The position numbers and the translations under genes were made by a program. A stretch of DNA of 64,000 nucleotides from Arenicola marina (lineage: Eukaryota; Annelida; Polychaeta; Arenicolidae). The stretch is from the NCBI GenBank assembly GCA_964019135.1, contig OZ025248.1:67834119-67898118 (forward strand), read 5' to 3'. How positions within the stretch are numbered: the stretch's first letter is position 1; each line of letters starts with the position of its first letter. Positions 2,369 through 59,929 of the stretch are shown in pieces. The notes beneath the pieces were generated by a model. It ran no database searches, was not told where the DNA came from, and saw nothing but the letters and a program-made list of their open reading frames with translations.

Positions 2369-2377
2369 CTTAAAGAG

Positions 2378-2489
2378 AGGAGCCGGCCCGGTAGCTCAGT
2401 GGGCTAGAGCGCTCGCCTTGAGTGTTCTGTTTGACGCGATATGACCAAAAGTGGTTAAAGCGTCCTGAATATACAACCCACCAACCAAT
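2378..2489 (+). mobile_element. tRNA-derived SINE, internally deleted copy
   Basis: Head with A box (TAGCTCAGTGGGC) joined directly to the 3' body (gacgcgatatgaccaaaag) with the middle, including the B box, missing. Flanked by the 9-bp duplication cttaaagag (2369-2377 and 2490-2498). The intact duplication suggests the deletion arose in the source element or after insertion without loss of the ends. Confidence 0.88.
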
Positions 2490-2498
2490 CTTAAAGAG

Positions 2499-5400
2499 TA
2501 CCGTTACTGTGCATCACACCAGCATTAAGTTATCCTGATAATCACTTTAAACAATCGAAGATATAATACATGTAGCCTGGGCTCGACTGAATAAAAAAAC
2601 CGGGAGAAACAGTGGGAGCATGCTACTTTTTTGTCGTCCGTATCATCACAAATATTCGTCATTATGCAATTTACCTACTCATTATGTACTTAACAGAGTA
2701 TCGCACGGTACATGGCGCAATTACTGAAATGTGCCCGTCGTTACAGAAGCCCGCGTACGGTGACTAAATGCTGAAATAACAAAAAACTACAGGGTAGGTC
2801 GAGTGCACGTTCTGTAGGCCTACACCGTAACCTTATGCAGTGTGTTATTGCGGGAGTGAATCACAAATATCCATGGTAATTACACCTTTGAGCTATTATA
2901 TACTATATTGGGATAACAGACTGAGCAATTTATCAGATATTTGCTTTTGGTGCGGTTACTTCAACAAAAAAATATCTAAAAGCAGATGCACATATATTAC
3001 TTAGTAGAGGTTTAATATTAACAGTCGATCTACCACCATTACCCAATTTAGTCTTCATGTGCACAAAAGCGGCATAAAACACCAGAGATCAGAATTAAGG
3101 CTTGACCGTCATCCTCTCACCAAGCAGCCCCCTCCCCGGTTATTGTGGCTGCAGCGATGTGCGGTTGGCCCACATGCCATCGTAACGGAGCAAGCCTATT
3201 AGTGGACACGATATGGTTAGTGGAGACAGTGGCGTGGGAAACCACATGGGAGGGTACGTCCCTGGGTTATTTAAGTCCTTCTCAAGGTCATCACTCAGGG
3301 CTTTGGGCTGGCTGGTTCCCTGAGACTTCAGCTGGGCACGTGAGGTCGTAGTGGTGTATGCCAACGTTAGACTCACTAATTATATTCCCAGCTAGGCTTG
3401 ATGTTCAGCGACATGTTGTCTCGTAATGTTACATTATGAATGCAAATTGGTGATGCTACAGAGAATGAGCAACATAGCTTCATATTAGTTCAATGGAAGC
3501 TTGTCCAATTTCTATGATACACAGCTTAACGTAGTTGCATATAAATATATAATTTAAAGTGTCATGCCATGAATGGTTTGATGTGCGCGTATTTTTGCTG
3601 GTTGTTCTTCCTCTGACCCTGTTAATGAACCAGGCTACCTTCATGGGGCTAATGGGCCAAGATTGTTTGTCCGGTGACGAAAGGAACAGGATGTGATGCT
3701 GTTGGGTTCTCCGTCGCCATCCTTTCCCTTCCGATCTCCCGACCTGGTATGATCCGCCATTTTTTGTTCCGCGTGTCCCGCTTTGGTTGTCCCTACCACA
3801 CGTTCCCTCCCGTACTTTAACACAGACAGTCAACGCTGCAAGTCGAAATTGGCTCCATTGTTTCCGATTGGGTAATCAATCTGGTTTTCCAGGCTGTCGG
3901 CGACAAAACCTACCAGTCATAGGCGTGAAAAGCCGGGAGTGGGACTCTTTACAGCAGGCTTTGTGAGTGTCTAACATGAGCGACCGACAAAACGATGTCA
4001 CGCGCGTGCAGGTCCAGACAAATCTTGCGCAATTCATAGCAAGGTGAAGGTCAAACGTTGTACCAATGGGAGCCGCAATGAAAATCACGTGGGTCACCCC
4101 CAGCCGTTAATTTAACTCTCTCTTCGTGGTTTTTGTGTGTCTGTGTTTGTCTGACGGCAAATTCTACAAACAACATCGCGTGCGGAAGGCCCGAAAACAT
4201 TAATGCTAACAGGGTTGGCGTGGGATGAGCTGCTACAGGACGCCGTGAACGACAGGACCAAAGATGGAGGACTGTGGCTGGTGCGGAGCGGTTCTTATCT
4301 AGAACAAAGAACCCAAGAACACCTCGTTTCCCGCCACGGAAAATAGTTGTCTCAGAAAAGGTTGTCCACCAGAATAAGACGAGACTGCTGGTGTGTCGCA
4401 TACTCCTGCAACCGGCTAACACACTCCTTCCTCTTGATGTATCGGACTATGACAATGGGGTTGAGGCATGATTATTAGCATTACGCCCAAAATGGCGCGC
4501 ACCGAGCGACTTTAATAGTGGAGCGTCACAAGAGAGCCGCCAGGACATCAATAGCGGACGGACTGGCCCTCAATAGCCCGGAGAGTGGCTCTACAAGCCA
4601 CCAGGAGGCGCCACAAGGACAAAAACAAAGCATCCCCACGTGGCAAGTAGAGTACGACAGAACACGCTATCTGGCTTTAATATACAAATGAATGGAATCT
4701 TGTAAATACGACCCCTGGCCCCCAACCCTCGTTGACTCCAGGCGACAATCTGACCTTCTACACGTCAACATATATGGCTTTAGAATTCAATCTACGAATA
4801 TGCGTTTTTCTTCCCGTTATCATATCGTTTGTGAGGGAGGCACAGACGGCAGTATAATGGGCCAACAAAAAGGCGGGGACGCCTTTGACCCGTGGCACAA
4901 CCATTGTCATACCAGTCCAACCCGAGACACAGTAAGTTATAAGAACGATTTCTTTTAATATTTACCACAAACGACACGAACTATCAAGTATGACATTGAG
5001 CCCTGGGGATCGTTTCTCTAGGAGGTCGTAACCTTATATTGTACATGCTAGTTTAAAGACTAAATGTAAATTTACGAGCAACAAAATTGAGCGCTATACA
5101 ACGGTTATTAGAGTTCAGCCATCTTCGTATGTCTTGCAAATATTATTCAAACGAATATTTCCAATAATTTTAGGATAAATGTGACACTTATCATACCATA
5201 CCAATGCAACATTTTACGAGCAAAACTAACGAGAAGTTAGTGCGCTGACCCTCAAGTTATCTGTCTTTTGCTCAAATGATGGAGATTTCTAAAATATATA
5301 GAACTTGAGAAGGAGTATTGACCGGATTATTTAGCGGTGGGGGGGAGGGGGTGGCTGAGGGGGTTGTAATGTTTCTAATTTATTGGATTCGAGCCTGATT

Positions 5401-41427: not shown

Positions 41428-41517
41428 TTAGTTCTTCTCGTGATCCTCCTCCATGGAAAGTAGAACGGGCAGAATGGCCAGGAAACTGATCTTATCAAGG
41501 CTGTCGCTGTCAGCCAC
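41428..41517 (-). CDS. Exon 16 (residues 721-749), stop codon
   Basis: Acceptor CTTTTCCAG, then [20 protein letters not shown] and SMEEDHEKN before [15 protein letters not shown] is a degenerate fourth EF-hand loop with Ile at position 8. The acidic tail then ends the protein. Confidence 0.87.
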   Translation of the reverse strand: MADSDSLDKISFLAILPVLLSMEEDHEKN

Positions 41518-44500
41518 CTGGAAAAGAAATCATTTGCTGGTTATATCCTATTACATTACAGCGCGCATAGGTTAGGGGCGGTTGCAAACTTAGAGCTAGT
41601 GAGCGTTACGCGGACAGTGCATAACTCCATGTTATATTATCGGCTTAGCCACACCCTACTAACCGTGTCCATGATGGTCTGAGAGACGGTATCGGGGTCA
41701 ACAGAGGGCATCTGAAGGGCGATAATTTCTCGCAGTGCAGTCTGGGATAGCTGCCCTGACCCCATCCTGTCAAACGACTGGAACAGCGCCTGAAGAGCAA
41801 CCAATCATAATCCCACTCATATTATTGTTCGTTGATAATTGACAAGGGAAAATAGCAAGTCAAAGAATTGGTAGCAAAATGTCGCTGTCTGTGTGCATAT
41901 ATTATAACAATGTCGTACATTTGGTTCATGTAGGGCGCCCTATTTATGGCATTGGGATGAATGACGGCTATGACGTCACCCCGCGATATACAGACCATAT
42001 AGCTGCTGAGTCGGTTCGCCGAGGCGCTTAAAGTGATGTTCTCGCTCGTACATCTCCTGTCCTTCCTAAACAGAGAGAGACAGAGAGGTAACGATGTAGA
42101 GTCATAGGTCTGGCCAAGCGACGCAATAACTTGAACAGATGTGTCATAAATTAATGTGAAATAGACGTGACATATGGGACATTTACTATATGTTATTTTA
42201 ACCTGTGGTGGCGATCACTGCCGGGGGGGGGGGGGGTGGGGCGGAAATCACGGCGGTAATAAACGTGGTACATTTGCATTTAATAATGTCCACGCATGAC
42301 AAATTGGTTGATCTGCCATAAACGAGTAATGAGAATATCCCACTATGCGCGCAACCTTCGCTCTCTGCCTTATACATCAACGGAAAGGAGGGGCGAAGCG
42401 CCACCTGGCGAATGGGGCGGTGGTTATGTTTTAACTCTGCTTGCTCTGCTGTCCCCCACCCCCTCCCTCCCTTCACGCCCTACCCGCCAGCCCATCCCTC
42501 CCCGCCATCCCCTCCCTCACTCCCTCCCCTCACGCCCTACCCGTCACTCCTCCCTTCCTACCTCCCTCCCTCCCTCCACGCCCTACCCGCCACCCCCTCC
42601 CACCCTGCCCTCCCATCCCTCACTCCCTCATTCCCTCACCCCCTCCCTTCGCGCCCTCTCTCCACACGATACTTACGGTAATGAGAGCATCTTGTCGCAC
42701 ACACACATCAGCGTGCTGAACTCGGACAAACCGAAGAACGTGGCGGAAGTGCTCAAGTCATACACCTGCCAACAAGCAAAGAAATATGCACTTAGTAAAA
42801 TAAGATAGCCGAAAAATCCAGTTCATGATGTGGGGTATTGGATAACTAAAAGCCGACCTGATGTTTGGTATCTGTTGTGGGGCGCTGTTTGCCAGCGTTG
42901 GATTATAATGTCACTATGGCGCAATTCATACTTCCACAATAGATGCCTTAAATCCCCGACTCTTGGATTTATGTATTAATCAGGAGACATACCTGGAAAC
43001 ACGTTGCAAGGCAGAAATTTGCATGAGCACGCTATGACGTATAAAGCATGTTGTATATGACGGACCGTTTGCCACGTGGACGTTATGAAGCCGCATTCGC
43101 GTTCGATGTGATATATAGTTATATTCCACTATGCAAATAGCAGGGCAATTATTACATCATTTGTGGCTAGTGTTTTCCGAAGTCATTGCTTGAATGAGTT
43201 AGTTCATCCCCTTCTTTACCATGGTGACTGCGCGCGCAATAAATATATCGCCGATAGTGCTAGTCGTGAGTAATACGTGAGTAATACTTGATAGCAATTA
43301 CGATCGGTCAAGCTGCCATAACGAAACGAAAAGGTAGGAAGATTAAATATTAAATAAATCGTCGATTGACATCACGTTGCTGCGCACTCATTGCACTCAT
43401 CTCACCCACAGCGTTCATCGCATGCTCCTAGGACGTTCCTTTAACCGTCTTAGCAAATGGGCATAAAAGGCTAAATTATTCAAACAGACTGACGGGAAGC
43501 TGAATGTACCTGTTTGATGAACCTCTCCTCGTGTTGCCGCAATCCCTCGGGAAGCGCAGAGAAGAACTGGTGGTACTTCAGGTGTCTGTGGGAGAAGACA
43601 CGTTATGAGAACGTTATGAGAACGTTACCATGCAGCCTGGCAGCCTATTCCAATCATAACGTTTCCCACGTAATTTATTCGCATGAAGTGGTCGGGAATA
43701 GATTATTACCGTGACCGTAGGAAATATTGTTTTTCCCTATAGAGCGGACATTCGCCATAGAAAAGATACCCCAATAGAGCGGAAATTTGCCATGCAAAGA
43801 TACCCCAATAGAGCGGACATTTGCCATGCAAAGATACCCCTATAGAGCGGACGTTTGCCATGAAAAATTTACCCCAATAGAGCGGGCATTCGGCATAGAA
43901 AAGCTACCCCTATACAGCGGACATTCGCCATAGAAAAAATACCCCAATAGAGCGGAAATTTGCCATGAAAAGATACCCCTATAGAGCGGACATTTGCCAT
44001 GAAAAGATACCCCTATAGAGTGAACACTTCTGATGAATAAGATAAAACTGATATTTCAACACATAGAGCGGCGACATAGAGCGGGTCAATGAAAAGAAGA
44101 CACCCCTGCCGAGCGGATTATGGAGCTGAAATATCCCTGCCGAGCGGATTTTGGAGGTGAAAACGGGGATGAGCGGCTTTAACGCGGAATTCGCCGAAAC
44201 CCAATATTGTATTAAGTACCCCCGGGGAAGGCTTATTCAAATCATTTGTTGCACCATATCCGGGATGATTTATTGTACATGATCCTATCTTACCCGTCAT
44301 TGTCCGTGTCCAGCCTACGAAATATCTCCGCCATCTCACGGAAACGGTCTTTATCAACCAGTCGCCGCACAGAATCTTCCTACACAACGAGTAACAAACA
44401 TGTCAATGAACAAAATTTCCTCTCACAGTATTAACTATGGCAATGTAGAAATGGCTCAATGTAGACTTCATGTGCGAAAAAATCGCTTAAGCGATAAGGT

Positions 44501-47500
44501 TTTGATCAGCAAAATCTGTAACCATGAGCTTATAATATAAGGCTGGACACGGTATAGTTCGGTAGTTCGGCCCGGTATACAGTTTTTTATATACTTGCCG
44601 ACAGAAGCAGTGATGACGTCACGGCGGCCTGGGTGTCACATCGCTTCGCCTCCTCAACAGCCTTGGATTTCTCTTCCTCTTCAAACACGTCGTCATTGTC
44701 CAATGGGTCCGGTCTGTGAAGAATGGTAGGGGTACTAACTGGCTAATAACCCCTCTAGCCCAACCCCCTTTCTTCTCTCTTACCTAAGGACAACCATCGA
44801 AGCCGCTCTCTGTTGTTATTTACTGAAACTGGTGATACACCTAAAAATATCTTAAAATATCATCTTTACCCTGTGTGAAGAGATGTGCACTCTAGGTTAG
44901 AGGATTGGTTCTATACATACTGGTCTAGGTTAGAGGACTGGGTCTATACACATCGGTCTATGTTAGACTGGGTCTATACACTCTGGTCTAGGTTAGAGAA
45001 TTGGGTCTATACACATTGGTCTATGTTAGAGAACTGAGTCTATACATACTTCTGAATCTATGCACACTGGTCTAGGTTAGAGGGCTGGGCCTATACATAC
45101 TGGTCTAGGTTAGAGGACTGGGTCTATACATACTGGTCTAGGTTAGAAGACTGGGTCTATACATACTGGTCTAGGTTAGAGGACTGGGTCTATACATACT
45201 GATCTAGGTTAGAGGACTGGGTCTATACATACTGGTCTGGGTTAGAGGACTGGGTCTATATATACTGGTCTAGGTTAGAGGGCTGGGTCTATACATACTG
45301 ATCTAGGTTAGAGGACTGGGTCTATACATACTGGTCTGGGTTAGAGGACTGGGTCTATACATACTGATCTAGGTTAGAGGACTGGGTCTATACATACTGG
45401 TCTGGGTTAGAGGACTGGGTCTATACATACTGGTCTGGGTTAGAGGACTGGGTCTATACATACTGATCTAGGTTAGAGGACTGGGTCTATACATACTGGT
45501 CTGGGTTAGAGGACTGGGTCTATACATACTGGTCTGGGTTAGAGGACTGGGTCTATATATACTGGTCTAGGTTAGAGGACTGGGTCTATACATACTGATC
45601 TAGGTTAGAGGACTGGGTCTATACATACTGGTCTGGGTTAGAGGACTGGGTCTATATATACTGGTCTAGGTTAGAGGACTGGCTCTATACATACTGGTTT
45701 AGGTTAGGGTTACAGGACTGGGTCTATACATACTGGTCTGGGTTAGAGGACTGGGTCTATACATACTGGTCTGGGTTAGAGGACTGGGTCTATATATACT
45801 GGTCTAGGTTAGAGGACTGGGTCTATACATACTGGTCTGGGTTAGAGGACTGGGTCTATACATACTGATCTAGGTTAGAGGACTGGGTCTATACATACTG
45901 GTCTGGGTTAGAGGACTGGGTCTATACATACTGGTCTGGGTTAGAGGACTGGGTCTATATATACTGGTCTAGGTTAGAGGACTGGGTCTATACATACTGA
46001 TCTAGGTTAGAGGACTGGGTCTATACATACTGGTCTGGGTTAGAGGACTGGGTCTATATATACTGGTCTAGGTTAGAGGACTGGCTCTATACATACTGGT
46101 TTAGGTTAGGGTTACAGGACTGGGTCTATACATACTGGTCTAGGTTAGAGGACTCAATCTATGCAAACTGGTTTAGGTTAGAGGGCTGGGTCTATAAATA
46201 CTGGTCTAGGTTAGAGGGCTGGGTCTCTACATACTGGTCTAGGTTAGAGGACTGGTTCTATACATACTGGTTTAGGTTAGGGTTACAGGACTGGGTCTAT
46301 ACATACTGGTCTAGGTTAGAGGACTGGGTCTATATATACTGGTCTAGGTTAGAAGACTGGGTCTATACATACTGGTCTAGGTTAGAGGACTGGGTCTATA
46401 CATACTGGTCTAGGTTAGAGGACTGGCTCTATACATACTGGTTTAGGTTAGGGTTACAGGACTGGGTTTATACATACTGGTCTAGGTTAGAAGACTGGGT
46501 CTATACATACTGGTCTAGGTTAGAGGACTGGGTCTATACATACTGGTCTAGGTTAGAGGACTGGGTCTATACATACTGGTCTGGGTTAGAGGACTGGGCC
46601 TATGCACACTGGTCTAGGTTAGAGGGCTGGGTCTGTATATACTGGTTTAGGTTAGAGGACTCAATCTTTGCAAACTGGTTTAGGTTAGAGGGCTGGGTCT
46701 ATAAATACTGGTCTAGGTTAGAGGGCTGGGTCTATACATACTGGTCTATGTTTGAGGACTGGGTCCATACATACTGGTCTGGGTTACAGGACTGGGTCTA
46801 TACATACTGGTCTGAGTGATAGGTACGCTCGATTGGTGATTGTTGTCTCGCGGTCCGGTCAGCTTCCTCGTCTCGCCGCACTACCGTGGGGGCGCCACCA
46901 TTGCCTGCGTCAACAGAACGGTGTGAGACACGTGACTTGTAGAGGCGCAGGGCGGCGGCGTTGTGGAAGTCCGCGGAGGAGGAAGAGTCGGAGGAATGGG
47001 AGGGCTGGGGGTGTCGGGGCGGCGAGGTCGACGGCACCCCGACCCGCACGGCTGCTGACGGCGACAGCGCTGGGACAAGTGACACGAGAGCCACCGACGT
47101 CAGACAGCTGACGATGGCACCGGCGCCATGGGTGGGGCCGCCGTGGGCCGCCTGTGGGGCTGAGAGGGGAAGAGAAGGCATCTAGCTAAGTAAGCAGTCT
47201 AAGTGCTGGGTCTGATTAACAAAAAGCGTCTAAGTGCAGTCTAATTACTTGAGCGGTTTAAGTGCAGAGTATAACTAAGAAAATGGTCTAAATACATGAT
47301 ATATTTAAGTGAGGGGTCTAAGTGTCTAATTAAGTGAGCGACTTAGTAATGATTTAATTTAAGTATTTGGTTTACGTACATGGTCTAATTAAGTGTATGA
47401 TCCAAGCAACGGTTTAAGTGCATGTTATAACGAAGTTAAGCGGACTAGGGGCATGATATAATTACGTAAACTGTGTCTAACTACATGGTAAACTGTGTCT

Positions 47501-50500
47501 AAGCAACGATTTAAGTGCATAGTATAACGAAGTTAAGCGGACTAGGGACATGATCTAATTTCGTAAACTGTGTCTAAGTACGTGGTCTAATTAAAAGTAA
47601 GCGGTCTAAGAAATGTAAAGAAATGTAAAGCTACTGTAATAATATGCAAATATCATTAAGTAAGCAATGAGATAAATCAAGCAGAAATGTAAACTACGTA
47701 TGTACACATTTTTGTAAACGTTTTGTATATTTTCATCGGGGCTAACTTATTACACCATTGATAGATCAAATAAGGAGAGGCAAAGATACAAAAGATACCA
47801 TCAATGTGAGACACAAGCTACGCAGCTGTATCGTGCTATACTATTTGTGAGTAACCACAGAGTAAACTCAAACATCAGACATCAAACAAACCGTGTGCCA
47901 TTGGTTACTGCGAAGGACATGTATGACAGTATGTTGCAAAAACAAGCTTTAGGCGGAAATACTAAGCCTAAGTAAGACATTGAACGTTTATTAACTAGAA
48001 TCCATTGACGAATGTACAAACAGAAGGCCACTCTGCTAGAAGAGGTAGCTCGTTCATCACATCGCCTCTGCCCCACGTGATTGACACATAACCAAAGGGG
48101 GCTGGGGTCACTGAGCCTTTTAGAACGTCGTGGAGACAAAAGGAGTATTCCCCATGCAGAATTTGAAATATAGACATTCCGTTGTCGTACGATCACAATG
48201 GAAGAAGTAAGCGAGAACATCTTTTAAAACAGCAAGGGGTCAAACTGTAAAGCGTTTCACGCCTATGACCTCGATCGAACTCGAAAACATAGTAACTTGG
48301 CTTCTAATTAATCAAAATCGAATAAATTCGTCCAGTACCGTACCAGTACCCCAGTAAATGCTGAACGGTGGTGTATCTGATACAAAAATTGCGAATATCT
48401 TTGATAATATTCATTTTCAATTTTCGCGTATGAAGGATAATTCTTTTGATTAAATTTGACTTGGAGCATATGGACTATAGCGTAACCGGCACGCCCTCTG
48501 TCGGAAGATCGCCAGATAGTACCACAACGTCGAACAACAGTAAGCGTTTTCCCCACAAGTTACAAACCGCAAACGCACACAAAATAAATAAGTAACATCT
48601 AAGTTTATCGTTCCAAAATTGAGAACTAAATTTGAGAACAGAGAGAAACATATAATTACGCGTTGTTAGTTCTCGCGATTTGAGATGATTAATCCGGCAA
48701 TGGAAGTGGGTAACAGCCGGAGGACATGGCAGAGGCAGGAGTGTTAAAATGGTGACAGCGAATGTACACACGTGTTTATAAATCCACAGACACTGATCAC
48801 GACTAGACGACGGAAGGTTATCGCTATACCTTTGTTGTCATGACACTGGTAGGCCGGACGGCCGTCCTTGATGTCGCCAGTCGATTTAATTAGCCTGCGG
48901 TGTCTTTTCGTTGACAGCGACTTGTCATGAGTAGTGTTTAAGTGGGACTGACGACCGGTCTTGACAACGTGGACATTATTGTTGTTGTTATTATTATTGT
49001 TGTTGTTGTTGTCGTCGTCATCCATGTCATTTTTCACGTGTGCAGTGGGCGGATCCGTTGCCGCGGAGTCAGGGTTTATGGTGTCGGGTTGGATGACGTC
49101 ATTCGAATTGATGACGTCATCATCCTGTGATAGCGTTCGTGGCACGTCGCCTGTGTCCTTGGGCGCGGGTTTTGACTTTTCCGTCATAACCCGCTTTGCG
49201 TCACCATTTGCTGAAAATCGTGCGTCCATTTGTATCGTACCGTTATATCGTACATTTGTATCGGACCTGAATTGCTTTGGTAATCCATGTTTAATACCTT
49301 CAATATGGCGGGGTGGGGGGGGGGGGGCTAAGCTCCCCTAAAACAAAACAAAAATGCAGGCCGCTGGACCACTATAACGTACGCCGTAATGCATATGTGC
49401 ATATTATTTCCCACTCTTTTTTAAATAAGCAGACGACATTTAACCGCACATGTTTTATGAATTCGAGATAAGGACAAAAAAAATATCAAGACGTATAAAG
49501 GGTGAGGCAATGAACCTGACGTACTGGCAATAACGGCTCAGCTTATTGACATGCATGTATAGGACGACATCATGGGGGATTATTGCCACAATTTGACGTT
49601 TGGCGTGCACAAGGTTTGTTTTTGTCCAGGTTTGGTGTAAGCGACAGACATTAGCTGCTGAAATATCTAATGTACTCCCTACAGCTATGGAACTAACTCT
49701 ACTAAATTTACAATCTGACCAACCTCGAGGTCATCGCAAACTCTCATTCCAACAGCCCAAGAAAGGGTCGAACGAAAGCATGTTCATACTGTTTTACTTT
49801 ATTTATTTCATTTCCACATTTATTAAAAAAAAACAATCTTCATGACGCATGCAATAACATAATAGCATCCATTACCGTCATTTCACCACAACAATTAGTA
49901 GTCCAACTTATGAACAAGGCAGTCTGCGGCATACGATGCATATGTAATGTTAATTTTCAAATAAAATACCTCTCTGTGACGGTCGGCGGCGGGGCTTGTT
50001 CAGGTTGTGATTTCTGCAATAGATCAGTAGGTCTCATAATTACATGACATTTTTTGGCCTTGCAAAATTATAATACGGTACCATGTAAATCGATTGTATA
50101 GAGAAAAATTACCAAATAGGTTAAGCGGGTCGACTCACCCCGGCAGCTTGAAGCCCCGCCCCACGTACAGGTCCTTGGCGCGAGTCGGCAGCAGGACTCC
50201 CTTCAGACTCCGGATCTCTGTCATGACGTCATCTCTGGAGCCACAAGGCACACACGTCCAGTGGATTGCGCAGTTACACACACACAGGGCATGACCCGGG
50301 TGATGCCATATTTATCAGGATCTCTACTATTAATTGGCACTATAATAATAACAATAATCCGTCATCATTTTACAGTTTACTATTCGCTCAGTGGGCCCAA
50401 CCATAGGTTTAACCGCACACGTTTTATAGACACATCTCTTACAATAACCTGTAAAACCCACATGGCTTCAACAATAACGGGGAAAATAATTGAAAGAGGA

Positions 50501-53500
50501 CAATGAAAAAACAAGGAACAATAACAAAGAGAGCATAGAGGACCATAATGAAGATAATGTGAAGGACAATAAGGATGACAATAAGGATGACAATAAGGAT
50601 GGCAATAAGGATGACAATAAGGATGACAATATACCGCTAACAATAACAAAGACCTCAGGACGGACGCAATAACGAAGACAATCGGACGGATGGTAACCAT
50701 GACAAGTAACAAAGGACGATACTGAGAGCAAAAGACAGACAACACGGGGGACAATGTTTTAAGGACAATATGGGCGACAATATGGGCGACATCAAAACAA
50801 TGATGAAAACCACAAGGAAAAAACATAAAGGACCATAAAAAGAAAGTCAACAATGATGAAAAACTATCTGACCCAGCCTGAACAAAGAATGTATTAATAT
50901 CTTGGCCTGATACAGCTGTATCAATCGCTCGGGGCCGACCCGTTAGCTCAGTGGGCTAGAGCGCTCGCATTGAGTGCTCTATTGGCCACCTGAGAGCCTA
51001 ACGGCACGTGGATCTGTGGTTCGAGCCCTGCTGTGGTCATGTCTGTGTGGTCGCAGGATAAAGATCCCATGTCTTTCTTCGTAAAGAGTAGGGGGTTACC
51101 CCCGGGGACATGGCTCCACTCTCCCTTCCTTCTCCATCATTGACGCGATATGACCAAAAGTGGTTAAAGCGTCCTGAGTAACCAACCAACCAACTGTATC
51201 AACCTTTCAAACGTGACGAGTGAATAGCCTGACGCATCTGTACGAACCTCTCAAACATGACTATCTTGGTTCCGCCCAGCAGGAAGTTCTCGTTGGCTCG
51301 ATGCTGGGCCGGCGGCCGGTTCTTCCGGACATCCTGTGCCTGGTCCTGATAGCTGGACTCCAACTCCAGACGATCGCGCTGAGACAAACTGGGACAAAGT
51401 ACCGTACAAAATGAAGGCCAAAGTACAAGATTTTCGGTGTGAGGCTTCGGCGCGGTCTGTTGGTGACGCCATTGCAAGATGTGGGTTTAGTTTACCGCAC
51501 TGGCTGTCTCTATACTTGCGCTGATCTAAAGCTTCGTATCATTCATAAGCTTCATTGCATGTGTATTCAAACGATATAACTGAATTCACGTTTAATGCGG
51601 ACAACGCAAGCTTCCATAATAATCACAAAAAATTGAGGAAAGGCATTATTTATATAACGAGCGAAATTTGCGCTGCGTCTGTCAACAAAATAATGGACAA
51701 TATGAAATGAAACGCATTTGACCGAACCAATTCATTATACATCGCCGAAGAAAAATGCAGAAATACGTTCTGACATACGGAACAGAACTGTCAGATCAAA
51801 TGAACAGGTTTCGGTTAGTGGTCAGTTGTTACTTCAAGCACATGGAGACATTCAAGAAAAGACATGAGGCGGCGGCCAACCAGTGATATGATATACAGCG
51901 ATGGCTAATCACTAGAAGCTTCCTACACAATCTACACAAACAAAGCAGAATTACTACTGCAGGCCGAATTGAGTCGTACAGAGTGGGTGATCCGCATTTA
52001 CATGAGCTGCAAACCGCAATGTTTCCAACTGAAAAACACTTTCTTTTTCATGGGGAGTGATGTAATTGGGTCGCTATGGCATAAACATATCGTGAACAAT
52101 ACATTCAAGGCACGTGGCTAAAGACACTAATTACCAGAGTGGCGCATTTCGTTCGGAATAGCAGGGGCGGAATTTGGAATTTGCCAAGGGGGCGGGGTTG
52201 CTTTGAAAACTTGCCATCCGGGGGGGGGGGGGTGCTAGGAGAACCTGATTTAACAGTGTATGTTCAAGTTCCCAAGGGGGGGGGGTTGCAACCCCCCTAC
52301 TCGCCCCCCCCCCCGCCCCCTAAACCCGCCCCTGAATAGTAGGACTTTTTTCTATACCATACAAATTCACATTTTTGACGTGTTGACATGGAGATAAATA
52401 TAATAAGACAATTTCTGAAAGTGTTCAAACTAACAGAAACAGACAACACGTATAGTATATCTATATACAATATGGAAGTAATTATATTACTACATAGGTG
52501 AAAACTGCGATGTCGCATAGCATTCTGCGTAGAATGTTGCACAGGATGTGACACAATATGTCACAGAGGGTGTGCCACGGGATGGCAAATGATGTCGCAG
52601 TGAGTGTGCTAGGAGATGGCAAATGATGTCGCAGTGATTGTGCCACGAGATGGCAAAGGGTGTCGCAGTGAGTGTGTCACGAGCTGGCAAAGGATGTCGC
52701 AGTGAGTGTGTCACGAGATGGCAAAGGATGTCGCAGTGAGTGTGCTACGAGATGGCAAATGATGTCGCAGTGAGTGTGCCACGAGATGGCAAATGATGTC
52801 GCAGTGAGTGTGTCATGAGATGGCAAAGGATGTCGCAGTGTGTCACGAGATGGCAAAGGATGTCGCAGTGAGTGTGCCACGAGATGGCAAAGGATGTCGC
52901 AGTGAGTGTGCCACGAGATGGCAAAGGATGTCGCAGTAAGTGTGCCACGAGATGGTAAAGGATGTCGCAGTGAGTGTGCCACGAGCTGGCAAAGGATGTC
53001 GCAGTGAGTGTGCCACGAGCTGGCAAAGGATGTCGCTGTGAGTGTGTCACGAGATGGCAAAGGATGTCGCAGTGAGTGTGTCACGAGATGGCAAAGGATG
53101 TCGCAGTGAGTGTGCTACGAGATGGCAAAGGATGTCGCAGTGAGTGTGCCACGAGATGGTAAAGGATGTCGCAGTGAGTGTGCCACGAGCTGGCAAAGGA
53201 TGTCGCAGTGAGTGTGCCACGAGATGGCAAAGGATGTCGCAGTGAGTGTGTCATGAGATGGCAAAGGATGTCGCAGTGAGTGTGCTACGAGATGGCAAAG
53301 GATGTCGCAGTGAGTGTGCCACGAGATGGTAAAGAATGTCGCAGAGAGTGTGCCACGAGATGGCAAAGGATGTCGCAGTGAGTGTGCCACGAGCTGGCAA
53401 AGGATGTCGCAGTGAGTGTGCCACGAGCTGGCAAAGGATGTCGCAGTGAGTGTGTCACGAGATGGCAAAGGGTGCCGCAGTGAGTGTGTCACGAGATGGC

Positions 53501-56500
53501 AAAGGATGTCGCAGTGAGTGTGCTACGAGATGGCAAAGGATGTCGCAGTGAGTGTGCCACGAGATGGTAAAGGATGTCGCAGAGAGTGTGCCACGAGATG
53601 GCAAAGGATGTCGCAGAGAGTGTGTCACGAGATGGCAAAGGATGTCGCAGTGAGTGTGCCACGAGATGGTAAAGGATGTCGCAGTGAGTGTGCCACGAGA
53701 TGGCAAAGGATGTCGCAGTGAGTGTGCCACGAGATGGCAAAGGCTGTCGCAGTGAGTGTGTCATGAGATGGCAAAGGATGTCGCAGTGAGTGTGCTACGA
53801 GATGGCAAAGGCTGTCGCAGTGACTGTGTCATGAGATGGTAAAGGATGTCGCAGAGAGTGTGTCACGAGATGGCAAAGGATGTCGCAGTGAGTGTGCTAC
53901 GAGATGGTAAAGGATGTCGCAGTGAGTGTGCCACGAGATGGCAAAGGATGTCGCAGTGAGTGTGCTACGAGATGGCAAAGGATGTTGCAGTGAGTGTGCC
54001 ACGAGATGGCAAAGGATGTCGCAGTGAGTGTGCCACGAGATGGCAAAGGCTGTCGCAGTGAGTGTGTCATGAGATGGCAAAGGATGTCGCAGTGAGTGTG
54101 CTACGAGATGGCAAAGGATGTCGCAGTGAGTGTGCCACGAGATGGCAAAGGATGTCGCAGTGAGTGTGCCACGAGATGGCAAAGGATGTCGCAGACAGTG
54201 TGCCACGAGATGGCAAAGGATGTCGCAGTGAGTGTGTCACGAGCTGGCAAAGGATGTCGCAGTGAGTGTGTCATGAGATGGCAAAGGATGTCGCAGTGAG
54301 TGTGCTACGAGATGGCAAAGGATGTCGCAGTGAGTGTGCCACGAGATGGCAAAGGATGTCGCAGTGAGTGTGTCACGAGGTGGCAAAGGATGTCGCAGTG
54401 AGTGTGCCACGAGATGTGACACAGTACGTCGCAGAGAGTGTGTCACGAGATGTCGCACAAGATGACAATCATGATACCCAGAGCAAAGTGTGATGCTACG
54501 AAGCTACCTATTGTCTACATTTCCTAAGTAGAAGTCTTACCTGAAGCTGGTGAACACATCTGGTAACTGTAAGACGAGTACCGTGTCAGACCTTACTATA
54601 ATCCAAGCTACGGCCGACCACAACACAGAAAGTTCACCCCAAGCCTAGACTATGTATCTGCCAGGCAAGGCCGCCATTTGACCTTCAGAAGGGTAACATA
54701 CTCGCCAAGCACGACAGTTAAGCCTTACAATTACCAATGGATATGAAACTTGTCTTGAGTCTTCAGCATCTTAATGTATTTATGTTATTTAGATGCTATT
54801 TCTCATTCGGGGGAAGGCGTAGTGTTTCGGGTACCTGTAAACTGTCATGGTGCACGAGGCAGCGTTTGGGCTGGCGTCGCCTGTAACTCATGTCTAGCGC
54901 TGACTCCGACCAAAGGCGCCTCGGTGTGACGAGCTTCTTTAAGACATAGCAAGACCTGAGAAAACATATGGCATCTTGTGATCGAGGAAGGCCAACAGTC
55001 TAATAGATGCATCAATGGGACCAATATTCTGATGCAGATTCGTCGGTAGGTGCCTTTGCGACGGGGTGGTGACCCCGGGGTGGTTGGTGACCCCATGGTG
55101 ACACGACAGACGGGTTGTGTAAGCCAAAAACACAGCACAACAAGTCAGATTGCTTAAAGCAAGACCACTGCACATATATATGTATGTGACAATTACAATT
55201 GAGTGAAATAGAAAAGGAGAACTTGTTGTGGTGCAAGTCACATCGTTAGAAGGTTTAGGTGAGAGACAAAAGGAAGTTGGCGTAGACAATCTGGGGAAGA
55301 AGTCAATGTTTTATATCAAGTCGACTGGTTTATTTAAAGCTGGGGATAGCGACTAAATGCTTTGTTTTCCACACTTTCCATCAACCGTGTCTCGACCAGC
55401 GATCATTCTGACGGATTTCTGGCAAAGGTAAAAAGATGCATCCCACATTTCATCATAATTAGATGTTACCATCTAATTCAGTTTCGAAACAAAATCCAAA
55501 TCCAATGATAATGTTCATTGACGCTCGGTTGACGAATCACAATGCATTCTGCTACCAGAGGGGGTGAGTTCGCAAACAGTAAGAGCTTGGCTTACCCGGC
55601 CCCGTTGCTAGGGCAATAAGGACGGAAGGTGGAAAAAACACGAGGCGCGAACGGCAGCCCCTGGACAGTCACCTTGTCCAAGGGGTCACTACGGACAGGA
55701 CAGAAACAGGCCACGGTCAAGGTCAAGGACAACGCTTATCCCTGGATAATTAAACGGGATGCGTGAAATTATTGCAGAATTATCTAATGTAATTTAGTTC
55801 AACAATAAAATATATTTGGAAACATTAAGACTAAAAGTCTAGCTTAATTGACGGTGAACAGAACATTTACCAGATACCATTGACTTGCTTGGCGGAAGTG
55901 TACGTGTAGGAGATGCATTGAACTAGCGACTCGACATAGATAACTACACGCCATCAAGTATTACGATTCCATTCGCTGGAAGGGTGATATTTGTTTGAGA
56001 AAATATCACCAATATGACTGAACAGAAGGAGGTATTTATGGTTGGTATAGGTCAAAGCGCTCAAATGTCATAATAACTGTATTTATTTATTTGTAAAACG
56101 AACTGCTGAGTTTCGCATATATCGTACAATTCGTACAGGTAATACAATATAATACACATGTATAATAAAGGTCACGATTGCATAAATATATCACTCAATC
56201 AATTTAACTATTTTACTGATCTGATTAGGGCAAAGCGGAGAGTCGTGTATATAAGACGTTGATCAAAACAAGACATCCACCCAGTATATGACACAAACAA
56301 ATAGGTGCGTCACATGAAAACAATGCATCATTTTGTGGTGACCGTTAAAAACGCAACAGGATAGAACAACATCGATCCGTTGCATCAGCATAGCTCACGT
56401 ATGCCTCACGACTTGCTGAAAACAATCGTCGATAGACTGGAGGTGGCTTAGGCCATCTTTGTGTACACATCGGCTAAACCGGATCAAGCAACCCCATTGG

Positions 56501-58705
56501 ATGAATGAGGGGAGCGATATGGGAACAATATAGATTAATACATCGCCCACCATCTCACCATCTAGGTCGCTAGGTCTGAAGCTCAGTGTGATAACAACTG
56601 AGCTGTGGAGGTTCTAGTAAACTAGTAAAAAAAATGCCCAGCCATCACCTACTCATGTCCCCCGCCCTCTGCTGCACCACACCCATTTAGCACCCCCCCC
56701 CCCACCGAGTGTTGGGGTATGAAACTAACCTGAACTCCCTGGAGTGAAAGGGAAGGGGCTCGGGGTTGAAAACCTTGGGGCGGTCATCCACCAGACTGTT
56801 GACACTCTTTGAGAGAGACATCCCGTGACCCCGAACTTGACCCTGCGGGAAAAACACTCAATGTTCAATAGGTTAAGACCAGACCAGAAACGAAAATAGG
56901 GTGAGGGGGGGGGGTACAGGTGGGGGGGCAAAATAATCGTTATTGTTCTCACAATGACAATGACCGAATTAGATTTATTTCAAAATTCGAGGCCTTCAGG
57001 CCCATAATACAAAAGAATTATCACGTAAACGTTTCGCAAGGTGCGCACAACAACAGCAGAATCATAACTTATTACGAAACTTCATGTCTAATTTCATTTA
57101 ACATTTTTGAGCGCGTTTTTCAACAGTGTATACAAACATGGCTACCCCTCGCTGAGTAATGGCATAATTTGAAGTCATCATCAGGTGCATGAAATTTATA
57201 TTTATATAAATATAATTTATATTTATATAATGACCATATCTCATACGACCATATGACCATATTATTAATGAGCCAATAACGCGACAATATGAAGACATGT
57301 AAGGAATATGTTTCACCCCACCAAAGTATCACCCTGTACAGACCTAACCCCATACAGGCCCACCCCATCAAAGAGAGTGTATGTTCTGTAAATTCGTTGA
57401 CCCCATACAGAGATCTAAAGACCGTACCCCATACAAACCTCACCCTATACAGACCTTACCACCCCATAAATACCGCACCCTACAGCTACCTTACCCCATA
57501 GAGGTCACACCATACACATCTCACCCCATACAGACCTCACCCAACAGAGACCTCACCCCACAGCGACCTCCCTCCACAGCGACCTCACCCCACAGAGACT
57601 TCACCCCATATTGACCCAGCACAGCGCCCAATGAACACAGACAACCACCAGCCGACCAGTTATAAGAGGTAACCTTGAAGACGCGAGGGTTTTGAATTTG
57701 GACCCCTTCTCCGTTGGAAACAGGGGCCGGCCCGATGGCTCAGTGTACTAGGGCGCTCGCCTTGAGTGCTCTGGTCACCGGAGAGCCTAACGGCAAGTAG
57801 ATCGGTGGTTCGCGAGAGTAAGGGTTTACCCCTGGGGACATGGCTCCGCTCTTCCCTTCTTGCTCCCATTGACGCGATATAAGCAAAAGTGATTAAAGCG
57901 TCCTGAATATACCACCAACCAACCAACTGCTGGAACTATATACCCGGGGAAACACCCCAGACATCTGAGCGTGTACACTACTGTATAGCCATGTGTTCAA
58001 GCAAACAGACGGTATATTAACCAAGACAAGTCGAGTCATACACCATTAAAGTTTCTCATTCAGCATTATTTTTCCTGAGAAACTTGTGTATGCATGTTGT
58101 TAACGTTTTTTTTGAAGAGGTATGGGAGGGGGGCAAACTGGTACACATCATGTGGGAAAGAGCGGCCTTCTTGTGTCTTACGTCATCCAAATGCTGACAC
58201 AACTGCTGTTCTTGTTACCATTTTAACATGGAACAAAATGATAACGTAGGTGAAAATCTGTTGCATGGGCACATTTAACCCCAAAGCCATACCATTATAC
58301 GTTACTATAGGTTAATCTGCTTAGCGGTTAGAGTTCCTTCTGCTGTGGTGGCAGTAAAACTAGTATACGACCAGCGGCTCAGAGTGCAATACCCTCCCCC
58401 CCCCCCTCAGTCCCCCACTCCCCCCTGCAATATGGCGACCACATTTAAGCCCCTTAACACGGCAATAACCCGGCGCACCCTTCGAGGTGTGGGGACACGC
58501 TTAATTGACCCTCTCATACAAAAACTGGCCATATTTGAATATTGGTTTACGGCTTTGAGGTCGAGACGTGCAAACGATGGAGCCTACAGTGACAACGAGA
58601 GCTATTTGCTAGCTGGTACGGACCACGGTGACCGCTGGCCAAGACAGCGCCCCCTGGGGCAGAGAGACAGGTCACTGGGGTCCCGAACGTACGCTTTAGC
58701 TGGAA

Positions 58706-58786
<81 letters not shown>

Positions 58787-59929
58787 CATACATATATATA
58801 TTGTGGATTAGGTACACACACACACATATATATATATTTATATATATACATCCCGCCGCCTAATGTCTAAATACCGAATAAGCCGTCTATAAATCTATTA
58901 GCAGATTGTCAATTGGAACAGTTCGCTAATGGATTTTGACCACATGAAAAACTCGATGTTATTAATTACAGGGTTGTAAAAAAAATTGAGACGCAAATCT
59001 GATGTGGACTGATATAATGTGCAATATATATATTATTCTTAATTGCAATCTTGGTTTAAAAAAAAAGAGAACTAAAAAAAACGGGGACCGCGGGGCGTGA
59101 CCAAATATTGAGGGGGTTGACCTTAGGATCCCGTTACTACGACTATGGCATTGGCTTGTTCTAGCGGGGCAGGGGGGGGGGGGGCAATACAGGGGCGTAT
59201 CCAAGGAGGGGGGGGGGGAACACCCTGCTATGGTGTATTGTATTCGCTTATGAAGCTTAAATCACCCTCAATCTTAAACGAGATAACGCGAGACGTGATT
59301 TTGAGCAGGTCTCACTAAATGTCTCTTGTAAAAATACACACATCAACCAACGTATGAGCTATCAACTAAAGGATTCTACTATAGCTGCAAAAAATAATTT
59401 ACTATCACCAGGGGCCTATTTCACGTAATAGTTTAGCCGGCTACGGGGCTTAGCCGACTAAAATCGCCCATCTTTTACATGGTAACTTTAGTCGACTAAG
59501 CCCCGTAGCCGGCTAAACTGCGTTCGTGAAATCCGCCACAGGTTGCACAATTTCAATATGAATTTAAATACTGTTAAATAAAAAGATTTGTAAAACAAAA
59601 GTTTACTTTTTGTTCAATGCACACCTTCCATACAGCACTGTACTCACAGAAGCAGCGCCACCTACTTGGAGCCGCCAGTCGTCCACTTCCTGTCGGGACC
59701 CGGAATCAGCGAACTTCCGGCTGCTGATGGAGGGAAGCGGGGAGCCTACGCGCAAAGGCTCACGGGAAGGCCCCTCCTGCGGGGTGCGGTGGGTCTGGAC
59801 TCCCTTCACGGGCTCCAGCCGCGGAAGTTTGGTCGGACTGGCCGCTTGGGGTGCCACTGGTCCCCCCGGTGACGTCCTTTGTGGTCCGAATGATCCAGAC
59901 ATGCTCAACAAGTTCAGACCGCCGTCCAT
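41428..59929 (-). CDS. EF-hand domain protein, 16-exon gene, 749 aa (family not recognised)
   Basis: Assembled by hand from 16 exons on the minus strand. The coding exon lengths sum to 2250 nt and every phase matches across every intron, which is strong evidence for a real gene. Residues 1-290 are mostly polar and Pro/Ser-rich. Residues 181-288 include a better-ordered stretch ([19 protein letters not shown]). Residues 289-532 are low complexity with an Asn-12 run. Residues 572-749 form an EF-hand module: EF1 loop DTDNDGHLKYHQ (595-606) has Asp at positions 1, 3 and 5 and Gly at 6 but Gln instead of Glu at 12. Three further helix-loop-helix units (about 613-650, 679-705, 712-740) have degenerate loops. 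No signal peptide or membrane segment is evident. A calcium sensor or structural EF-hand role is an inference. Alternative first exons upstream cannot be excluded. Confidence 0.85.
41664..41789 (-). CDS. Exon 15 (residues 679-720), EF-hand 3-like
   Basis: Acceptor GTTGCTCTTCAG, donor ACACG|GTTAGT. Encodes [20 protein letters not shown] followed by [20 protein letters not shown]: an EF-hand-shaped helix-loop-helix ([10 protein letters not shown]) that keeps Gly-6 and Leu-8 but lacks the position 12 acid. Confidence 0.86.
41996..42065 (-). CDS. Exon 14 (residues 655-678)
   Basis: Acceptor CTCTCTCTGTTTAG, donor TATATG|GTCTGT (weak). A second frame is open through this exon, but only [20 protein letters not shown] plus SYM joins exon 13 (phase 2) and exon 15 (phase 0). 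Links the two EF-hand pairs. Confidence 0.78.
42398..42410 (-). promoter_or_regulatory. CTCF-core-like motif in intron 13
   Basis: CGCCAGGTGGCGC on the minus strand. Confidence 0.42.
42677..42765 (-). CDS. Exon 13 (residues 626-655), degenerate EF-hand 2
   Basis: Acceptor TTGGCAG, donor TTACC|GTAAGT (strong). Encodes [20 protein letters not shown] and CVCDKMLSL. The helix-loop-helix pattern is kept but the loop lacks the acidic ligands, so calcium binding here is unlikely. Confidence 0.84.
43510..43585 (-). CDS. Exon 12 (residues 600-625), second half of EF-hand 1
   Basis: Acceptor TTCTCCCACAG, donor CAAACAG|GTACAT. Encodes [20 protein letters not shown] and RFIKQ: completion of the loop (Gln at the position usually held by Glu), exiting helix, and the start of the next helix. 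Confidence 0.86.
43734..44185. repeat. 34-bp degenerate tandem repeat in intron 11
   Basis: About nine recognisable units of the type ccctatagagcggacatt plus tgccatgaaaagatac from 43734 to 44020. Only the tagagcgg / ccgagcgg core persists to 44185. The core resembles the end sequences of some pogo/Tigger elements, but that is a guess. Confidence 0.85.
44294..44379 (-). CDS. Exon 11 (residues 572-600), first half of EF-hand 1
   Basis: Acceptor GTTGTGTAG, donor GACGG|GTAAGA. Encodes [20 protein letters not shown] and then RRLDTDND: the entering helix and first half of a canonical EF-hand loop. The intron interrupts the loop after its fifth residue, with Gly-6 split across the junction. Confidence 0.87.
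44599..44713 (-). CDS. Exon 10 (residues 533-571), GC donor
   Basis: Acceptor TTCTTCACAG. Encodes [20 protein letters not shown] and a further acidic or helical stretch, likely a linker or coiled segment before the EF-hands. The only donor that keeps the frame with exon 11 is the non-canonical GC in TCG|GCAAGT. The nearby GT (GCAA|GTATAT) would shift the frame into a stop. Confidence 0.78.
44891..46814. repeat. 33-bp minisatellite filling intron 9, about 58 units
   Basis: Unit on the plus strand begins ctaggttagaggactggg and continues tctatacatactggt. Variants (gtctggg, tgatcta, tatatatact) recur in blocks, and a longer unit with gggttacagg recurs near 45705, 46095, 46270 and 46447, so there is higher-order structure (about 390 bp and 176 bp). 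In the gene's sense every unit carries CCA|GTATGTATAG, the same sequence as the functional donor of exon 9. Confidence 0.95.
46808..47159 (-). CDS. Exon 9 (residues 416-533)
   Basis: Acceptor follows the pyrimidine tract CCTTCTCTTCCCCTCTCAG. A second AG nine bases downstream (CCCCACAG) is out of phase with exon 8. Donor ACCA|GTATGT. Encodes an Ala/Ser/Pro-rich region with a Ser run and ends [11 protein letters not shown]. The final ten bases and the donor belong to the first unit of the 33-bp minisatellite that fills intron 9. Confidence 0.78.
47190..47620. repeat. Degenerate tandem repeat next to the exon 9 acceptor (intron 8)
   Basis: Loose units of about 28-30 bp built from ctaattaagtgagc, ggtctaagtgcatgg and close variants. 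The array ends about 20 bases before the pyrimidine tract of exon 9. Confidence 0.7.
48830..49210 (-). CDS. Exon 8 (residues 289-415), Asp/Asn-rich
   Basis: Acceptor CGATTTTCAG, donor AACAAAG|GTATAG. Encodes a polar, probably disordered region with four Asp followed by twelve Asn at about residues 352-367. The Asn run uses a mixture of AAC and AAT codons rather than one pure codon repeat. The open frame extends past both splice sites, so the exact acceptor is set by phase with exon 7. Confidence 0.78.
49970..50013 (-). CDS. Exon 7, 44 nt (residues 274-288)
   Basis: Acceptor CTATTGCAG, donor GAGAG|GTATTT. Encodes the basic peptide [14 protein letters not shown]. Phase 2 in and phase 1 out agree with both neighbours, and the other frames contain stops. 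Confidence 0.78.
50139..50232 (-). CDS. Exon 6 (residues 243-274)
   Basis: Uses the second AG of GGCTCCAGAG|AT. The first AG would put a TGA in frame after exon 5. Donor CCGGG|GTGAGT is strong. Encodes [20 protein letters not shown] and then [12 protein letters not shown], which reads like folded protein. Confidence 0.83.
50558..50632. repeat. 12-bp tandem repeat in intron 5
   Basis: Six copies of gacaataaggat or ggcaataaggat. Confidence 0.9.
50925..51193 (+). mobile_element. tRNA-derived SINE, near full-length copy, in intron 5
   Basis: Contains a pol III A box (TAGCTCAGTGGGC, 50944-50956) and B box (GGTTCGAGCCC, 51018-51028), a unique central body and a short tail of AACC repeats. Flanked by the 9-bp target-site duplication ctgtatcaa (50916-50924 and 51194-51202). 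It lies antisense to the host gene, and its 3' duplication overlaps the splice donor of exon 5. Best copy of a family with three other members in the window. Confidence 0.92.
51204..51388 (-). CDS. Exon 5 (residues 181-243)
   Basis: Acceptor TACTTTGTCCCAG (a second AG ten bases on, TTTGTCTCAG, is out of phase with exon 4). Donor AAAG|GTTGAT, phase 1 out. Encodes [18 protein letters not shown] followed by a more ordered, conserved-looking stretch ending [18 protein letters not shown] begins about ten bases inside the following intron. Confidence 0.83.
52536..54466. repeat. 34-bp minisatellite in intron 4, about 57 units
   Basis: Unit gatggcaaaggatgtcgcag followed by tgagtgtgccacga. Units differ at a few positions (tgtcac/tgccac/tgctac, gatgg/gctgg). 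Thirty-four is not a multiple of three and the units lack stops in some frames, which explains the 90-135 codon open frames here. These are not genes. Confidence 0.95.
54541..54566 (-). CDS. Exon 4, 26-nt microexon (residues 173-181)
   Basis: Twenty-six bases between CGTCTTACAG and a canonical donor, CAG|GTAAGA. Encodes LPDVFTSF plus two bases that complete Ser with exon 5. It is supported only by its strong splice sites and by phase, so RNA evidence would be decisive. Its donor lies about 70 bases from the 34-bp minisatellite in intron 4. Confidence 0.65.
54835..54955 (-). CDS. Exon 3 (residues 132-172)
   Basis: Acceptor GTTTTCTCAG, donor TTACAG|GTACCC. Encodes a basic segment ([14 protein letters not shown], then [17 protein letters not shown]). 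Another frame across this exon is also open, but only this one joins exon 2 in phase 2 and exon 4 in phase 0. Confidence 0.75.
55983..56010. other. 10-bp inverted repeat in intron 2
   Basis: ggtgatattt and aaatatcacc separated by eight bases. No other context. Confidence 0.7.
56730..56842 (-). CDS. Exon 2 (residues 95-131)
   Basis: Acceptor TTTTTCCCGCAG, donor TTCAG|GTTAGT, phase 0 in and phase 2 out. Encodes [20 protein letters not shown] and continues with [17 protein letters not shown]. The polypyrimidine tract and the matching phases with exons 1 and 3 support it. Confidence 0.85.
57310..57615. repeat. 16-bp degenerate tandem repeat in intron 1
   Basis: Units of cctcaccccatacaga with variants (cctaaccccatacagg, cctcaccccacagcga), about 17 copies. 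On the sense strand of the gene this is TG/GGGGTGAGG-rich. Confidence 0.85.
57724..57930 (+). mobile_element. tRNA-derived SINE, copy with disrupted B box, in intron 1
   Basis: Same family as the copy at 50925: matching head with A box (TGGCTCAGTG), matching body and AACC-type tail. A deletion runs through the B box (GGTTCGCGAGAG), so it is probably inactive. Short flanking duplication tggaa at each side. Confidence 0.88.
58711..58851. repeat. TA dinucleotide microsatellite in intron 1
   Basis: Long tatata tract with single-base interruptions and a short cacacaca insert near 58815. Explains the Tyr/Ile-repeat open frames here. Confidence 0.97.
59418..59532. mobile_element. Palindromic MITE in intron 1 of the EF-hand gene
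   Basis: Arms of about 45 bases around gtttagccggctacggggc (59418-59465 and 59485-59532) with a 19-base loop, differing at only a few positions. The ends carry atttcacg / cgtgaaat. No open frame. The two arms are more alike than expected of an old element. Confidence 0.85.
59648..59929 (-). CDS. Exon 1 (residues 1-94), start codon
   Basis: Opens with ATG at 59929 in the context TACCATGG (A at -3, G at +4), with an in-frame TGA 42 nt upstream of the ATG, so this is a good initiator. It ends at a strong donor, GCTTCT|GTGAGT, in phase 0. The encoded segment is Pro/Ser/Gly-rich and probably disordered, ending [10 protein letters not shown]. The last 22 bases contain a CTCF-core-like motif. A non-coding 5' exon further upstream is possible and was not found. 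Confidence 0.82.
59655..59669 (-). promoter_or_regulatory. CTCF-core-like motif inside exon 1
   Basis: CCAAGTAGGTGGCGC on the minus strand, in the coding part of exon 1 seven bases before its splice donor. A second core lies in intron 1 (58647-58660, GCCCCAGGGGGCGC). Confidence 0.4.

Follow-up and report, generated by a model that had tools for sequence, protein, structure and literature searches.

A 33-bp minisatellite that likely takes in an exon end and its splice donor in an annelid EF-hand gene

On the minus strand of a 64,000-nt stretch of the Arenicola marina genome (contig OZ025248.1; the whole stretch is hereafter the window) we found a minisatellite with a unit of about 33 bp that runs from within exon 8 of an EF-hand gene model to near the end of intron 8. 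The 58-unit array as such is real, and it very probably lies inside an intron of a genuine gene. The explanation we favor, as probable rather than secure, is that it is a boundary-spanning minisatellite, or 'mirage', whose outermost donor is the one used, in a minisatellite-rich annelid genome. The locus is likely a mirage in a new phylum, of a kind known from amphioxus.

The array and its host gene

Wraparound alignment along the minus strand resolved 58 head-to-tail units between 46807 and 44891, an array of 1917 nt, the limits being 46822 and 44891 when the partial unit belonging to the exon was included. Overlapping TRF rows spanned 44891-46813, the largest (45057-46813) holding 52.5 copies of 33 bp. 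TRF and alignment together bear out the 33-bp minisatellite that a first-pass annotation, made from the sequence before our analysis, had placed at an exon edge. That annotation had the array filling the intron with about 58 copies; the number of units stands, but they cover only 1917 of the 2094 nt of intron 8, and the remaining 177 nt, acceptor included, lie outside the array (none of the 13-mers of these last 177 nt recurs elsewhere in the window). The intron is a minus-strand intron of a gene, as had been described, but it and the exon before it had been numbered 9, and in our 15-exon model the intron is intron 8. The description of every unit as a copy of the donor was too strong: CCA/GTATGT (the slash marks the putative junction) is exact in 33 of the 58 units and the GT is kept in 55, but 25 units are not exact copies. 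TCA/GTATGT occurs in seven units and CCA/GTATAT in eight. The CTAAC motif, rightly reported as carried in the units, occurs 55 times within the array, and AGs are also present in the units.

With four longer 39-bp units set aside, unit divergence was higher toward both edges of the array, and the middle holds higher-order copies in which several units were copied together (a run of 335 nt is repeated exactly at an offset of 402). When the genome was searched with 210 nt from the array's 3' end, at least 12 places matched, all inside the focal array; counts from this search are lower bounds, very common words having been skipped, and no second allele was among its matches in this one assembly. 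As far as sequence goes, a piece that matches only the focal array is compatible with an array that grew out of the 5' end of the intron itself, as the first-pass annotation had suggested.

Table 1. Features of the focal locus (window positions) and the four myosin exons whose donor lies inside an array
Feature	Position	Strand	Description	Basis
Whole gene model	41428..59929	-	15 exons, 717-aa EF-hand protein	homologues P0001-P0003, EF-hand_6
Exon 8	46808..47159	-	352 nt, phase 1 in/2 out, likely ending TCA GAC CA/gtatgt; unconserved linker	open frame, strong acceptor, phases
Partial repeat unit	46808..46822	-	15 nt, equal to the likely end of exon 8	wraparound alignment
First, putatively functional donor	46802..46807	-	GTATGT, intronic half	generic score, phase 2; U1 duplex -3.7 kcal/mol
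In-frame TAG	46798..46800	-	reached by any deeper donor	sequence and frame
Array	44891..46807	-	58 units of ~33 bp	TRF and alignment
Non-repeat 3' part of intron 8	44714..44890	-	polypyrimidine tract and CACAG acceptor	sequence
Exon 9	44599..44713	-	phase 2 in, GC donor TCG/gcaagt	gene model; codon score z 3.4
L054			62 bp, at least 25 copies, 49 exonic nt; array reaches end of fetched stretch	
L061			37 bp, 6.6 copies, 13 exonic nt	
L074			100 bp, at least 15 copies, 51 exonic nt; array reaches end of fetched stretch	
L075			126 bp, 2.9 copies, 58 exonic nt	

The gene model maintains its frame across all 14 introns, and an EF-hand_6 domain in the part of the protein encoded below the array scored 31 bits against a Pfam cut-off of 25. 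Homologues were found in three species, all annelid (Lamellibrachia satsuma, Ridgeia piscesae and Dimorphilus gyrociliatus). Collinearly and on the minus strand, the L. satsuma protein matched two exons above the array, 4 and 5 (E-values 9e-4 and 6e-10), and three below it, 11, 12 and 14 (3.0, 0.017 and 1.3). Stronger evidence for the lower part of the gene came from adding exons 10-15 to the query, in which exon 8 and most of exon 7 were masked: the score of the L. satsuma protein went from 80 to 152 bits, in query set-ups that differed, and the two further homologues came in. By codon usage, trained on 42 loci (5507 codons), the true frame outscored the other five in 11 of the 15 exons, exon 8 (z 2.4) among them. 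Other searches added little: Pfam matches to the minus frames and to a first model were below curated cut-offs (RIIa 0.04, PRC2_EED_ins 0.008, DUF4612 1.7) or absent, solved structures gave no match at E 0.5, and of two ab initio exon scans one found no exons and the other recovered three of the 15 model exons (2, 3 and 10). A gene end at 44588 was considered and ruled out, as the homologue matches EF-hand segments beyond that point. The donor of exon 9 (44598-44593) is apparently a GC site, TCG/gcaagt, with phase kept into exon 10. Two 34-bp arrays, at 52558-54452 and 43735-44020, lie in introns 3 and 10 of the model, off the junctions.

The end of exon 8 and the choice of donor

In our judgement exon 8 likely ends at the unit-1 donor of the array, which we treat as putative. 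The tail of the exon agrees with the repeat at 7 of 7, 9 of 10 and 12 of 15 bases, and no other window in exon 8 matched the repeat equally well (0 of 340, 0 of 337 and 0 of 332 windows of 7, 10 and 15 nt, respectively). Among 24 GTs examined in exon 8, that of unit 1 alone had a positive generic score, and it is in the phase that exon 9 requires. The first-pass annotation had put the last ten exon bases inside the repeat and had taken unit 1 as the functional donor. For the first statement nine of the ten bases match, but the exon end at 46808 is itself only likely; for the second, a phase-2 junction, CA/GTATGT, and consistent phases speak in its favor, but exon 8 is unconserved and a corrected parse does as well or better with a site upstream. 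The in-frame TAG that had been predicted beyond unit 1 is there, at 46800-46798, where the unspliced frame reads TCA GAC CAG TAT GTA TAG.

It is possible, although on balance we doubt it, that exon 8 instead ends upstream of the array, either at 46937 or at 46885 with a 26-nt microexon following. The array would then be an ordinary intronic minisatellite starting about 60-115 nt past the donor, and its GTs would be unused decoys. Exon 8 falls in a linker region that has no conserved counterpart in the homologues, and the codon score drops in its final 129 nt. Of the three forward frames there, the open one scores lowest for synonymous codons (-8.5 vs -0.2 and 7.0), although the other two hold two stops and one stop; the drop in codon score fits an upstream end. 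So does the weakness of the array donor, CCA/GTATGT being, at -3.7, the weakest by computed U1 pairing of 42 donors (the gene's other 13 donors range from -5.7 to -10.4 and 28 myosin donors from -5.3 to -13.3). The corrected simple parse favors 46937; its margin is about 0.6 bits under a generic donor matrix and about 5 under a genome-adjusted one. The 46885 route scored 21.7 vs 22.9 in a parse that favored the array donor but was trained on mis-oriented minus-strand loci. Intronic arrays are moreover common, making up 28.4% of intronic and flanking bases at 28 myosin loci. Against this, the donor at 46937 (CAA/GTCACG) is without a G at +5 and has a U1 pairing of only -1.4, no stop interrupts the frame before 46808, where the phase suits exon 9, and an exon end lies within an array in 4 of 28 myosin exons, which are described below.

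If the array does span the boundary and its outermost donor is used, it may have begun with a tandem duplication of about 15 nt of exon and the first ~18 nt of intron, which slippage or unequal exchange would have expanded. Selection on the protein would keep only the outermost copy in place, and the inner copies would drift and homogenise inside the intron; as long as the outermost copy is intact and used, the protein would be unharmed. The introns flanking exon 8 are long (1670 and 2094 nt), which suggests exon definition, and under exon definition the spliceosome would pick the first copy, as the donor closest to the acceptor of the same exon. Exon definition with near-equal donors fits use of the outermost donor. 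According to PMC9225289, where alternative donors are near-equal, exons between long introns favor the upstream donor, nearest their own acceptor; the same paper gives the stronger site as dominant in 86% of evaluated events, which counts against a preference for the outermost donor. Splicing at a deeper donor would lead to the in-frame TAG, and so to a truncated product or mRNA decay. Such arrays may be tolerated because the preferred donor is the one nearest the exon's own acceptor and the inner donors mostly run into stop codons. The donor used, the route of array growth and the choice made by the spliceosome are what we infer here, and the best explanation of the arrays is, we believe, that they are by-products, for which we propose no function.

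Two readings would give the units a role. In the one, the array is a length-variable rheostat, in which more inner donors yield more products with premature stops and the level of EF-hand protein is governed by copy number. The in-frame TAG after unit 1, the many identical donors and the higher-order duplication, which suggests changes in length, all suit such a device; we nevertheless think it very unlikely, as donors of near-equal strength under exon definition favor the upstream site (PMC9225289) and amphioxus mirages are said, in PMC3087553 and PMC3902484, not to disturb regular splicing. In the other, the CTAAC and AG of the units let them serve in recursive or microexon splicing, and we give this scarcely any credence: the array does hold 55 CTAACs, and AGs within its units, but the consensus unit is without a juxtaposed AG/GT, its pyrimidine run is short (TCCTCT), and several AGs stand between CTAAC and the next possible acceptor.

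Arrays at myosin junctions and across the genome

We examined 30 myosin-head loci, of which 28 had both junctions set (L066 and L070 were dropped for an ambiguous edge); junctions were called from the sequence, by splice scores in the neighbourhood of the Pfam match, and the donor of L071 was placed by hand. Another 30 kinase loci were scanned for arrays, and the junction counts given here cover the myosin loci. Four of the 28 myosin exons have their donor within an array whose units repeat it together with the exon end, 13-58 exonic nt being included (Table 1); no acceptor was inside such an array (0 of 28). The 14-base junction recurs exactly 15 times in L054, 6 times in L061, 12 times in L074 and 3 times in L075; L054 and L075 are within 20 kb of each other on contig C12 and may be a single gene. 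An in-frame stop precedes the next junction copy in L054, L074 and L075, but not in L061. U1 pairing of these four array donors is ordinary (-6.4 to -11.4; the other 24 have a median of -7.65), and the residues at the ends of the four exons are ones that we take to be conserved in myosins. Judged from sequence, the mirage feature is firmer at these four exons than at the focal locus.

The difference between donors and acceptors inside arrays (4/28 vs 0/28) has p = 0.11, and with the focal gene counted in (5/42 vs 0/42) p = 0.055; for arrays touching within 30 nt, the counts are 8/28 donors and 1/28 acceptors (p = 0.025). The 28 donors gave no support for an array hot spot, coverage 5-50 nt downstream (5-8 of 28) being equal to the 28.4% background. 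Acceptors are array-poor, with 0-1 of 28 having an array within 30 nt and arrays sparse to about 50 nt. The plain reading is that acceptors, with their branch point and pyrimidine tract, are protected and that donors tolerate arrays.

Genome-wide, the triple tandem pattern CAGGTAAGT gave 1816 matches, compared to 447 for the backward pattern, and AAGGTGAGT gave 1510 compared to 185 for its backward control. The acceptor-like pattern TTTTACAGG was also in excess (589 vs 101 for the control). Pattern matches are clustered, one array yielding many, and these counts are indications to which we attach no p-values. A broader proposal would be that donor-spanning arrays are pervasive, at perhaps a tenth of donors, and absent at acceptors, since the first-transcribed, outermost donor wins, and that copy number may tune the productive share; we hold this to be rather unlikely.

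Two other features of these loci were noted. Myosin loci L047, L050, L056, L057, L060, L063 and L076 have C at +3 of the donor (gtcagt-like), which makes 7 of 27 GT donors, seemingly many. In the kinase locus L030, in what is apparently the last exon, an array at 2238-3663 (107 bp x 13.6) starts near the stop codon and carries the coding end into the 3' flank, the same arrangement with a stop codon in place of a donor.

Known systems and other observations on the assembly

The first-pass annotation had mentioned splice-junction minisatellites in amphioxus, and these are real: PMC3087553 and PMC3902484 describe 'mirages', minisatellites that span exon-intron boundaries, in the globin genes BflGb6 and BflGb9, in Adh3 and in TnC, with similar repeats in PGBD5. 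Units are 10-72 bp in Adh3 and 150-160 bp in the globins; regular splicing is stated, and somatic instability is described at Adh3. The arrays found here resemble them in the tandem duplication of an exon-intron boundary, at the focal locus a likely one, and in carrying splice signals in many units. They differ in coming from an annelid, in the 58 x 33 bp of the focal array and in that all four myosin cases are at donors; the duplications in amphioxus involve 5' as well as 3' boundaries, according to the same papers. In unit length, homogenised middle, diverged edges and higher-order copies the focal array is like ordinary intronic minisatellites or VNTRs, but unlike them it takes in a presumed exon end and donor. 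It is also like the competing 5' splice sites of PMC9225289 in presenting near-equal donors after one exon, with the difference that here there are dozens of natural local copies and there few. A full-text search of open-licence papers found no boundary-spanning arrays in annelids, and earlier reports are possible; an earthworm metallothionein paper (PMC12783039) reportedly mentions minisatellites and splice donors.

Donor choice among equals is usually studied with few sites, and here many near-identical donors seemingly follow single exons. The recurrence reaches genes as conserved as the myosins, and RNA could test donor choice directly. The arrays also bear on the proposal, made in PMC3087553, that such repeats may seed new introns.

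Several further observations concern the assembly at large. Contig C762 (15,942 bp) is mitochondrial and carries, on one strand, cox1-cox2-atp8-cox3-nad6-cob-atp6-nad5-nad4L-nad4-rRNAs-nad1-nad3-nad2, the genes having been named by eye and the rRNAs by gap; this gene order is typical of annelids. The frame of its COX1 stays open when AGR is translated as Ser, but the vertebrate code puts stops into it. Among the 120 best of 7999 COX1 matches the nearest is Pilargis wolfi, an annelid of the order Phyllodocida, at 91%, and the named matches ranking next are likewise annelid. Together with the annelid homologues of the focal gene this rules out an amphioxus source and points to an annelid, perhaps one in or close to Phyllodocida. 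Contigs C443, C465, C504, C330, C652, C390, C536 and others hold kinase or kinesin matches with in-frame TAG and TAA and no TGA, which suggests contamination from an organism that translates TAR into an amino acid, such as a ciliate. At L012-L015, 40 kb past the right end of the window, tandem repeats of period at least 9 make up 46% of the bases, compared to 13.6% in the window. On C3, at about 14-57 Mb, kinase-like matches occur by the dozen, in open frames some 250-380 residues long. Five equally scoring kinase matches at C5:5402476-5437356 (L037-L041) are spaced at about 8.5 kb, perhaps a recent tandem gene array.
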